From Bacillota bacterium (GTDB lineage: Bacteria > Bacillota > JADQBR01), in contig JADQBR010000136.1 of NCBI GenBank assembly GCA_016278515.1, forward strand, positions 1 through 34,712: 34,712 nt of DNA, given 5' to 3'. The notes beneath the pieces were generated by a model. It had not been told where the DNA came from. It did not search any database and was given only the letters and a program-made list of their open reading frames with translations. Each line of letters starts with the position of its first letter. Position 1 is the stretch's first letter. The position numbers and the translations under genes are program-made. Of the stretch, positions 7,085 to 15,541 are shown piece by piece.

Positions 7085-7137
7085 GAAAGTCTTAGTTGCA
7101 TTTATGCTAATCAGAAAGTCATATTTTCTGATAGTAG
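7085..7137. repeat. dispersed intergenic repeat, copy 1
   Basis: This shares TTAGTTGCATTYATGCTAAT followed by an AGAAA...TTTCT hairpin and TGATAGTA with 15044-15093. Here the hairpin ATCAGAAA/TTTCTGAT is a perfect 8-bp stem. It is non-coding and lies downstream of the terminator of the DUF2179-type gene. Confidence 0.7.
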
Positions 7138-12023: not shown

Positions 12024-13136
12024 TTATTTTATTTTCAGACCAGCTAACGAATCATCCAATGCATCAAAGAAACGTTTATTCTGCTCCTCAGTGCCTACTG
12101 TCAACCTTATATAATCTTCATTGCCAAATATGTCACCGGAGCGTACGATAACTCCCCTCTGAAGCATAGCTGGAAACAGCTCTTTTGAAGATACCCCAAC
12201 CTTAATGAAGATAAAATTGGCTTCTGTCGGAACATAACTAAGTCCTCGTTCCTCCAAACCACGATAAATTTGTTTCTTGCCTGCTTCATTAAGCTGGACA
12301 CTTTCCCTAACGTGATTTTGATCCTTAATACCGGCGAGAGCGGCTGCTTGTGCAAAATTATTGACGTTAAACGGTTCCATGGTGCGTTTAATCCAAGAAA
12401 TTACTTCCGGATGTGCAATTCCATAGCCAATACGCAGACCTGCTAAACCATAAACCTTAGAAAAAGTTCTTAAAATAATAACGTTTTTCCGGCCTTGCTT
12501 TACGTAGTCCAGAGTCTTGGGATACTCCTGGTTTTGTACATATTCGTAATATGCTTCGTCAAATATAACCATGACATTGTCAGGAACTTTTTCCATCAAG
12601 TCATCAACTTCCTGTTTTGTCACGACAGTACCGGTTGGGTTGTTTGGATTGCATACAAATAACAGCTTAGTTTTATCCGTAATTTTTTCGGCCATGGCAG
12701 ATAAATCATGAGTGAAATCCTTTAACGGAACGAATATGCATTCTGCATCCATTAACTTGGCTGCAAATATATATTCAGAAAATGACGGCTGCCCTATCAC
12801 AACTTCATCACCAGGTAGCAAAAATGTTTCAGCGATTAATTTTAATAATTCATCAGACCCGTTTCCTACCATCAATTGATTAGGAGAGACTTCCCAGTGC
12901 TGACTCAAGGCATCTTTTAAATAGTAACAATTGCCATCAGGGTAAATCTGGGCCTTAGCTGCTAAATCTTGTATAGCACTAACGGACTTAGGAGACGGCC
13001 CTAAAGGGTTCTCATTAGCTGCCATTTTAATTACATTTTTAATTCCTAATTCTCTTTCTACTTCCTCAATAGGCTTTCCCGGTACATATGGCTTAATATC
13101 TGCCAAATTTTTTCTCACCATTTTCGATAAATCCAT
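12024..13136 (-). CDS. hisC: histidinol-phosphate/aromatic aminotransferase
   Basis: This is a 370-residue class I/II PLP-dependent aminotransferase of the HisC subgroup. Seen are the N-terminal YVPGKPIEEVERELGIKNVIKMAANENPLGPSP, GNGSDELLKLIAETFL, the NPNNPTG substrate-carboxylate region, IFDEAYYEYV (PLP Asp-Tyr), and the Schiff-base lysine in LRTFSKVYGLAGLRIGYG; the C-terminal arginine lies in YIRLTVGT. HisC acts on histidinol phosphate, and many HisC-type enzymes also transaminate phenylpyruvate or hydroxyphenylpyruvate. No other his gene is present and it is downstream of a Phe-type T-box with paaK, so aromatic transamination is the likelier job here. ATG with GGAG upstream. Confidence 0.9.
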   Translation of the reverse strand: MDLSKMVRKNLADIKPYVPGKPIEEVERELGIKNVIKMAANENPLGPSPKSVSAIQDLAAKAQIYPDGNCYYLKDALSQHWEVSPNQLMVGNGSDELLKLIAETFLLPGDEVVIGQPSFSEYIFAAKLMDAECIFVPLKDFTHDLSAMAEKITDKTKLLFVCNPNNPTGTVVTKQEVDDLMEKVPDNVMVIFDEAYYEYVQNQEYPKTLDYVKQGRKNVIILRTFSKVYGLAGLRIGYGIAHPEVISWIKRTMEPFNVNNFAQAAALAGIKDQNHVRESVQLNEAGKKQIYRGLEERGLSYVPTEANFIFIKVGVSSKELFPAMLQRGVIVRSGDIFGNEDYIRLTVGTEEQNKRFFDALDDSLAGLKIK

Positions 13137-13207: not shown

Positions 13208-13639
13208 TTATAGGGCATATATTTCTTCACCTTTAAGTATGTTTATTCCTTTTTCTTGCAAAACTTTTATGGCATCATCAATATTCTCCACACGGAAAAT
13301 AACTAAAGCATCTTCATAAGCGCTCCCTACAAACGCATAAAGATATTCAATATTGACCTGGCGCTTTTCTAAAATCTCCATAACTCCTGCTAACCCGCCC
13401 GGTTCGTCGGACATGGCCACCCCGATAACCTCAGTCATGCTAACTGTAAATCCTTGTTCTTTCAACACCTCATATGCTTTATCCGGTTCATTAACTATTA
13501 GACGCAAAATCCCAAAGTCAGAAGTATCTGCGATCGATAACGCGCGAATGTTTACCCCTTCTTCAGCCAATAACTTTGTTACCGCTGCCAGTCTGCCTTG
13601 TTTGTTCTCCAAAAAAATGGATATTTGCTTGATCTTCAT
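13208..13639 (-). CDS. tandem ACT-domain amino-acid-binding protein
   Basis: A 143-residue protein made of two ACT domains, ferredoxin-like folds that bind amino acids. The first spans about 1-70 (ISIFLENKQGRLAAVTKLLAEEGVNIRALSI), the second about 72-143 (VAMSDEPGGLAGVMEILEKRQVNIEYLYAFVG). There is no catalytic domain. Proteins of this kind are common beside paaK in anaerobes and may sense aromatic amino acids, modulating the neighbouring ligase or aminotransferase; that is inference. It lies 21 bp after paaK and 71 bp before hisC, all under the same T-box. GGGGGTAGG lies upstream of its ATG. Confidence 0.9.
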   Translation of the reverse strand: MKIKQISIFLENKQGRLAAVTKLLAEEGVNIRALSIADTSDFGILRLIVNEPDKAYEVLKEQGFTVSMTEVIGVAMSDEPGGLAGVMEILEKRQVNIEYLYAFVGSAYEDALVIFRVENIDDAIKVLQEKGINILKGEEIYAL

Positions 13640-13660: not shown

Positions 13661-14962
13661 TTAGTATTTACGCTTATCAAAAACTCTTTTAGCCTTTCCT
13701 TCGCTACGTTCAATAGTTTTTGGTTCAACCAAAGTAATCTTAGCACTAATCCCTAAAACAGTATCAATTTCTTTTCGTATCTTTTCTTCCAACTGTTCTA
13801 ACCGTCTTACTTCATCGGAGAAAAGCGCCTCCGATACTTCAACCTGAATTTCTAACGTATCCAAGGTGCCAATACGGTCCACTATTAATTTATAATGCGG
13901 TTCTGTTTCCCCAATATCCAATAAGACACTCTCCACTTGAGAAGGAAAGACATTAACACCTCGAATAATTAACATATCATCACTGCGACCACTCACTCTT
14001 TCCATACGAATATGAGTCCGGCCACAGGAACATTCTTCCTCGATTAACCTGGAAATATCACGAGTACGATATCTGATCATCGGTAAAGCTTCTTTCGTAA
14101 GAGAAGTAAATACTAGTTCACCTACTTCTCCTATTGGTAAGGTTTCTCCTGTTTCGGGATTTATTATTTCCGGGATAAAATGATCCTCGAAAATATGCAA
14201 CCCTCTTTTCTCTTCACATTCTATAGCAACACCTGGGCCAATTATTTCGCTCAGACCGTATATGTCATGAGCGGAAATATCCAGTTTTCTCTCAATTTCC
14301 TTACGCATATTCTCAGACCAAGGTTCTGCACCAAATATACCACTTTTAAGTTTTAAATCCGTTTTAGGATCAATACCCATTTCTTGCATTACCTCGGCCA
14401 TAAATAAAGCGTAGGAGGGCGTACAGGTTAAAACCGTAGTACCATAATCTTTCATAATCATAATTTGTCGTTTTGTATTACCACCCGACGTGGGAATAAC
14501 TGATGCACCTAATCGTTCGGCTCCGTAGTGCACCCCTAGTCCCCCGGTAAATAAGCCGTAACCATATGAATTTTGAATAACATCTTCACGCCCAGCCCCA
14601 CCGCAAGCTAGTGAACGCGCCATCAATTCTGCCCAAGTGTTTAAATCATTTCTCGTATATCCTACTACCGTCGGCTTTCCTGTAGTACCCGACGAGGAAT
14701 GAATGCGGACTATTTCTGATAGATGTACGGCAAACATTCCATATGGATAATTGTCCCTTAGGTCCTCTTTAGTCGTAAAAGGTAGCTTGCTCAGATCATC
14801 CAAGGAACTTATATCCCCCGGTTCCATTCCCTTATCCTGCATTACCTTCTTATAATGCTCAACATCATGGAAACTCCGTTCAATTGTCTGTTTCAACCGC
14901 TCCAACTGCAATTCCTTTAAGTCTTCTCTCGGTAGAGTCTCATATTTTTCATTCCAATTCAT
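13661..14962 (-). CDS. paaK: phenylacetate-CoA ligase
   Basis: An AMP-forming ligase of 433 residues, the standard length of PaaK, activating phenylacetate or another aryl acid with CoA. Seen are the N-terminal [22 protein letters not shown], the P-loop-like [54 protein letters not shown] and the C-terminal domain with [23 protein letters not shown]. No ring-epoxidase genes (paaABCDE) are near, as expected for an anaerobe. It is first after a T-box reading Phe codons, so it should be made when charged tRNA-Phe is short. That suggests phenylacetyl-CoA is used to make phenylpyruvate and phenylalanine. The ATG follows GGGGGGTATTTAA. Confidence 0.93.
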
Positions 14963-15043
14963 TTAAATACCCCCCAATATATTGTTATTCATATTACCTA
15001 TTGTGCCAATGGCTGATCAAAAAATTACCCCAAGACGCAGGAA

Positions 15044-15093
15044 AAAGCCTTAGTTGCATTCATGCTAATCCAGAAAGGTTACTTTCTGATAGT
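15044..15093. repeat. dispersed intergenic repeat, copy 2
   Basis: Second copy of the element at 7085-7137: AGCCTTAGTTGCATTCATGC, then a CAGAAAG/CTTTCTG hairpin and GATAGTA. It lies between the T-box terminator and paaK, so it is transcribed as part of the paaK leader on read-through. Confidence 0.7.
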
Positions 15094-15136
15094 AAAAATA
15101 AAGCCACAATTCCGTCTCAGGGACGAAATTGTGGCT
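15093..15136 (-). terminator. second (main) T-box terminator
   Basis: On the minus strand AGCCACAATT(T)CGTC and GACGGAATTGTGGCT pair around CCTGA, followed by TTATTTTTA. Its 5' arm overlaps the T-box antiterminator, so it is conditional on tRNA charging. Confidence 0.88.
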
Positions 15137-15460
15137 GCGCGCTACCACCCTGCTGGTTCATGGATATACCTCTCTATGGGTGTAAAACTTGGTTTTAGAA
15201 AATAAAAAACCCCATCCTAGGGCTGAGAGTCTTTTCTCATGTTACCACCCTAAATGTGGTATAAAACAAGTACGGGACCAAGTCCTTATACCCTCTTCCC
15301 CTTAACGGAGGAAGATCCGTCGCACCTACTAACCATACAACTCAGCGTACGGCATTCAGCTTGAAACTCCCAGGAGAACTTCAGCTTAATCATCCCCACC
15401 AGGCTCCCACCATTCCCGACTCGCTTTTGGTTTCTACTAAGTTTACTTTTCCTGTTCATT
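15093..15460 (-). promoter_or_regulatory. T-box riboswitch (Phe specifier) with two antiterminator/terminator platforms
   Basis: On the minus strand a T-box Stem I is seen (AGCGAGTCGGGAATGGTGGG, then AGCC, about 15400-15425). The specifier loop is GAAG-TTC-TCCTGGGAG; TTC at 15376-15378 reads Phe by alignment with the glyQS pattern (GAAA-GGC-ATTCTTGAG). A first T-box sequence, AGGGTGGTAAC (15241-15251), is followed by a weak hairpin AGCCC/GGGTT and a T-run (15203-15224). A second, AGGGTGGTAGCGCG (15138-15151), is followed by a strong hairpin ending in TTTATTTTT (15093-15136). No second Stem I is present. A likely -10 (TATAAT, 15470-15475) lies upstream. Confidence 0.9.
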
Positions 15461-15541
15461 GTTTTTAAAATTATATCACTGTATTTATTTAATTTAATCA
15501 CAATTCCGTGATTTAGTCAACTAATTAATTGAAAATTTGGT

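Follow-up and report, generated by a model that had tools for sequence, protein, structure and literature searches.

A phenylalanine T-box leader with one Stem I, two antiterminator/terminator units and a long-range complementarity that may hand the sensor from one unit to the other

How can a T-box leader that contains a single tRNA sensor serve two expression platforms? The question is raised by a doubled leader on the minus strand (15468-15094) of the window, i.e. the whole 34,712-nucleotide stretch of Bacillota DNA analysed here, upstream of paaK-ACT-hisC. Leaders with duplicated terminator-antiterminator elements were reportedly first described by Vitreschak et al. in 2008 (RNA). The class, termed 'partially tandem', combines one sensor with two expression platforms, just as the leader in the window does, and is acknowledged in the literature (PMC7583486), as the first-pass annotation of this DNA had stated; it has been noted for years without a known mode of action. 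Fully tandem T-boxes (trp, thrS, ilv) also have two serial terminators, which have been suggested to sharpen the response (PMC9413887; PMC12452182), but they contain a Stem I and a specifier per unit, whereas the leader in the window has one Stem I in all. The leader itself thus belongs to a known class, and the hand-off of the sensor proposed below is not described as far as checked: in the literature covered, which does not include Vitreschak et al. 2008, we found no account of a covarying helix between the second unit and the sensor or of a bias towards Phe.

The first-pass annotation had read the region as a single Stem I followed by two modules, each with a T-box sequence, a hairpin and a T-run, 100 bases apart and without a second specifier, and had proposed a covariance model search of both modules. 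This search confirms the layout. RF00230 matches 15468-15216 (minus strand) at 93.7 bits, marginally above the gathering threshold of 93, and the match stops in antiterminator 1. The T-box sequences AGGGTGGTAAC (from 15251) and AGGGTGGTAGCGCG (from 15151) are spaced by 100 nt, and unit 2, scanned on its own, matches no more of the model than positions 102-219 (16.5 bits, under the cut-off), i.e. there is neither a second Stem I nor a second specifier. A consensus scan of the minus strand yields exactly two terminator-like sites, one of 7 bp (15224-15208) and one of 15 bp (15136-15102), as compared to 0.2 from shuffled sequences. It also yields three promoter-like sites, with 1.3 expected from shuffles, among them a weak one (TTGACT-18-TAAATT, 15491-15520, minus strand, 9/12), and none between unit 1 and unit 2.

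The single Stem I (15366-15463, minus strand; RF00230 alignment) comprises the GA motif/AGTA region, the apical AGCGAG and GGTGGGA loops and the specifier loop GAAGUUCUCC. The specifier is TTC (15376-15378, minus strand) within GAAGTTCTCC, as given by the RF00230 alignment and the identical triplet in aligned leaders of relatives. As the element GAA-N-UUC recurs in the single-unit leaders that precede paaK in relatives (L016, L026, L031, L040 and L042), the codon can be read as UUC, i.e. Phe, in agreement with the first-pass annotation and with the aromatic amino acid genes downstream. Stem I is followed by the Stem IIA/B region (15292-15319, minus strand; direct reading and RF00230 alignment), where the CGG..CCGTTA (F-box) hairpin exposes a CTTCC loop able to pair with GGAAG downstream. 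Ordinary Phe T-boxes, e.g. the pheS leader of the same genome and the single-unit paaK leaders, share the UUC specifier, Stem I, the F-box and the hairpin that joins sensor and antiterminator, but have one unit only, whereas the leader in the window has two. In both of these the UGGN bulge of the antiterminator reads UGGU, and each antiterminator is exclusive with a terminator, with which it shares CCCT. UGGU suits A73, the usual discriminator base of tRNA-Phe; the sequence patterns used gave no match to a tRNA-Phe gene in the same genome. A truncated tRNA with the anticodon arm CTGGCCTTCCAAGCCAG lies at the contig end (1-53 of the window, minus strand) and looks like tRNA-Gly.

Doubled leaders recur in the phylum. 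The motif pair is present in 41 of 398 sampled genomes (26 of 266 genera), and a reversed-pattern control gave no match in the same 398 genomes. About half of the matches of the first scan were a Stem I loop artefact caused by GGGTGGTG in the distal loop and were removed; the pattern of the later scan barred G at the place that gives rise to it. Pooling the phylum scan, a scan of named genomes and gene-based searches, and dropping three poor candidates, resulted in at least 83 doubled leaders. Phe is the commonest specificity in this sample (61 of 83), and paaK is the target of 8 of the leaders, so that a Phe specifier before paaK is not unusual, contrary to what the first-pass annotation had supposed. 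The most frequent targets are DAHP synthase (40 leaders) and sodium:solute symporters (9 leaders, and one more distant); others include ABC transporter substrate-binding and permease genes, prephenate dehydratase, lysA and ilvH. An aminoacyl-tRNA synthetase is the target of none of the collected doubled leaders (at least 83). In the genome under study, by contrast, such a gene lies behind 8 of 12 single T-boxes; the sample is biased by the spacing window and by kinship, the contrast nonetheless being large. This genome has 14 T-boxes, of which only two, both Phe, are doubled, namely the paaK leader and one before DAHP synthase (L004); its pheS T-box is single.

Two leaders are more elaborate. 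In a leader from a member of the Veillonellaceae one Stem I is followed by three T-box sequences, 93 and 90 nt apart, upstream of an amino acid ABC transporter gene (L081, 1545-1740). In Alicyclobacillus fastidiosus a complete T-box and then a T-box with two antiterminator units precede DAHP synthase (L046, 598-1161), and further T-boxes are found on the opposite strand.

In the window, unit 1 consists of antiterminator 1 (15218-15252, minus strand; RF00230 alignment, -10.5 kcal/mol), the T-box bulge of which reads UGGUAAC, and of terminator 1 (15199-15224, minus strand; consensus scan and fold energy), a weak 7 bp hairpin followed by a T-run. As CCCTA at 15222-15218, the 3' side of antiterminator 1, is common to both, the two structures are mutually exclusive; the first module, whose ability to form them the first-pass annotation had left to structure modelling, can thus adopt either. 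Unit 1 has no Stem III. Its place is occupied by TACCAC, a potential partner for GUGGUA in the T-box bulge, and the possible hairpin TACCAC/GTGGTA (15243-15261, minus strand; fold and direct reading) would mask the first bulge. The arrangement is similar in the paaK leader of a member of the same family (G001), and in L017 a comparable hairpin, CACC/GGTG, may form over the T-box bulge.

The hairpin of terminator 1 alone has -6.5 kcal/mol and is the weakest among 78 first terminators measured. Because of this weakness and of the missing Stem III, unit 1 may be a leaky, weak or decaying gate in this leader, and, terminator 1 being weak, the main burden probably falls on the second gate. Taken further, unit 1 would be a decaying leftover, only unit 2 would terminate, and the leader would act like any one-unit T-box, apart from carrying a long insert. 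The energy of terminator 1 as compared to -10.5 kcal/mol for antiterminator 1, the lack of Stem III and the presence of a single unit in another family member (G002, L016) would all be in line with this idea, but we consider it unlikely, as unit 1 keeps its T-box sequence, antiterminator and T-run, as the complementary strand of unit 2 described below is kept as well, and as the first terminator before paaK in G001 is strong (-19.8). Throughout the class most first terminators are genuine, with a median near -18 kcal/mol, and in 55 of 68 doubled leaders they are weaker than the second. The first units of L205, L177 and L108 (Desulforamulus putei), for example, are stronger than that of the window.

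Unit 2 is more complete. It comprises a strand complementary to 15293-15278, CCAAGTTTTACACCC (15178-15192, minus strand), which is followed by the purine string AGAGA and a Stem III (GGT...ACC; 15155-15175, minus strand; direct reading and aligned spacers), by antiterminator 2 (AGGGTGGTAGCGCG ... CGTCCCT; 15119-15151, minus strand; model alignment and direct reading) with a canonical bulge, and by terminator 2 (15094-15136, minus strand; consensus scan), a 15 bp hairpin with a T-run (-22.8 kcal/mol, z -7.8).

The long-range complementarity that links unit 2 to the sensor is an addition beyond the first-pass annotation. In Phe leaders the pseudoknot and unit 1 are separated by a hairpin, as a rule GGUAUCGGA...UCCCGUACC, whose 5' strand and loop have a complementary counterpart in the spacer before unit 2. 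In the window the 5' strand GGGTATAAGGACTTGG (15278-15293, minus strand; fold and duplex computations) has two alternative partners, i.e. the local 3' strand GTCCCGTACTT on the side of unit 1 (15268-15278, minus strand; aligned spacers and folds) or the strand of unit 2, in which case GGGUAUAAGGACUUGG (15293-15278) lies opposite CCAAGUUUUACACCC (15192-15178) in a duplex of -17.6 kcal/mol. The local and the distal fold are nearly equal (-33.9 vs -33.7 kcal/mol), all energies being equilibrium values modelled for the RNA with neither tRNA nor protein present, and the duplex values leaving out the cost of loop closure. In one fold run the single best structure was the local hairpin, whereas the ensemble favoured the distal helix.

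Matched duplexes average -19.3 kcal/mol over all 60 leaders, as compared to -14.5 +/- 0.37 kcal/mol when spacers are permuted among leaders (0 of 20,000 permutations), and -19.05 vs -14.01 +/- 0.60 kcal/mol over the 25 leaders that share under 70% identity (z -8.4, 0 of 20,000), with z -1.5 and -2.0 for two control regions in the same 25-leader test; the leaders are kin, so these counts are not true probabilities. Counting pairs more strictly, in a fixed register, again gives an excess for all leaders (0 of 5000), but a modest one for a set of 18 divergent leaders (47 of 5000). Moreover, the sequences change on both sides: the group with GGAUAUC carries GUAUC in unit 2, leaders with CCAGUAUC carry GGUACUGG, a better pairing partner than the strand in their unit 1, AAGGCAAC occurs together with GUUGCCUU in L080, and in L175 U-A replaces C-G in the distal helix.

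The 3' strand CCGUACC recurs in the spacer before unit 2, mostly without the 5' strand; CCGTAC is found in 22 of the 61 Phe-leader spacers (0.5 expected), and 12 have a GGTAT or GGTAC of their own. The complementarity might thus be a by-product of the duplication of the 3' strand together with the antiterminator rather than a selected helix. As CCGUACC-like strands are present in both units, duplication alone could account for part of it, and kinship inflates the permutation tests. Nevertheless, such an origin appears rather improbable, since control regions give little signal and since in several leaders, e.g. L129 and L080, the 5' strand is matched better by unit 2 than by unit 1. Furthermore, the pairing extends into the loop of hairpin 1, which is specifically complementary to the stretch immediately preceding the unit 2 strand (z -5.1 in 43 leaders; z -3.3 in a divergent set of 12); copying of the 3' strand alone would not account for this.

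Based on these findings we favour, with a probability of roughly 55%, a tRNA-Phe T-box in which one sensor, i.e. Stem I, Stem II and the pseudoknot, would serve two serial expression platforms and would be handed over between them by strand exchange; what makes this reading the likeliest is the complementarity of the unit 2 spacer to the sensor-side hairpin. Uncharged tRNA-Phe on Stem I would steady antiterminator 1 so that the polymerase passes terminator 1. As a tRNA has only one 3' end and the antiterminator-tRNA complex is stable, the second antiterminator would require the sensor to be moved. Once transcribed, the spacer before unit 2 would pair with the 5' strand and the loop of the hairpin between sensor and unit 1, the exchange perhaps starting at the loop, the unit 1 strand would be displaced and unit 1 looped out, and Stem III and antiterminator 2 would take its former place next to Stem I and the tRNA bound there. 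The same tethered tRNA might then be questioned again at antiterminator 2. With charged tRNA-Phe either terminator could stop transcription, and basal expression would approximate the product of two leak rates.

Two independent gates without any hand-off would be conceivable, too, antiterminator 2 using another uncharged tRNA or being reached by the tRNA end without the distal helix. The presence of a Stem III and a canonical bulge in unit 2 itself, as well as Alicyclobacillus doubled leaders, which appear to have no joining hairpin, would be compatible with such an arrangement. We regard it as very improbable for the leader in the window, since unit 2 has no sensor, since isolated antiterminators bind tRNA weakly, and since the covarying complementarity would be left unexplained.

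For Phe-specific doubled T-boxes we suggest tentatively, at slightly less than even odds, a toehold-like strand exchange in which the spacer of unit 2 would invade the linking hairpin, free unit 1 and re-dock the same sensor, still loaded with its tRNA, on unit 2. A single aptamer would thus take two successive termination decisions per transcript. The hand-off is not general to the doubled class, as the pairing signal is weak in a mixed set of non-Phe doubled leaders (8 of 10,000) and the joining hairpin is apparently missing in Alicyclobacillus. The conserved long-range helix provides a concrete hypothesis, accessible to mutation, of the way in which a single tRNA sensor may serve two platforms.

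The purpose of a second gate is suggested by the lack of aminoacyl-tRNA synthetase targets. A leak that is multiplied down would fit costly biosynthesis and uptake genes, not essential synthetases, and the proposal of the first-pass annotation that two decisions on one sensor sharpen the off state is plausible in the light of the target distribution; in the leader of the window, however, terminator 1 is weak.

The first regulated gene encodes a paaK-like phenylacetate-CoA ligase (13661-14962, minus strand; best NCBIfam match TIGR02155, 605 bits, slightly below the cut-off of 646), followed by a protein with a pair of ACT domains (13208-13639, minus strand; Pfam ACT_8, 2.5e-32) and a HisC-type aminotransferase (12024-13136, minus strand; TIGR01141, 349 bits, above the cut-off). 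Elsewhere in the genome a gene for indolepyruvate:ferredoxin oxidoreductase alpha (776 bits, above the cut-off) adjoins a second paaK homologue, and in one relative a doubled Phe T-box is followed in a row by a sodium:solute symporter, an EamA transporter, paaK and the ACT-pair gene. From this context we infer that the operon functions in the uptake of phenylacetate and its conversion via phenylacetyl-CoA and phenylpyruvate to phenylalanine. The Phe specifier links paaK operons to phenylalanine supply, probably via Phe made from phenylacetate. The symporters behind doubled Phe T-boxes (L060, L064, L080, L095, L116, L129, L167, L168 and L173) are candidate phenylacetate or arylacid transporters.

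Directly 3' of terminator 2 lies one copy (15030-15100, minus strand) of an intergenic repeat (ACTATCAGAAAGTATAACTTTCTGATTAGCATAAATGCAACTAAGGCTT..., about 66 nt long), of which the window contains another at 7086-7136 (minus strand). The repeat is dispersed, with 17 matches across the genome, and has no match in Rfam, and the ileS T-box (L001) is likewise followed by a stretch that resembles it.
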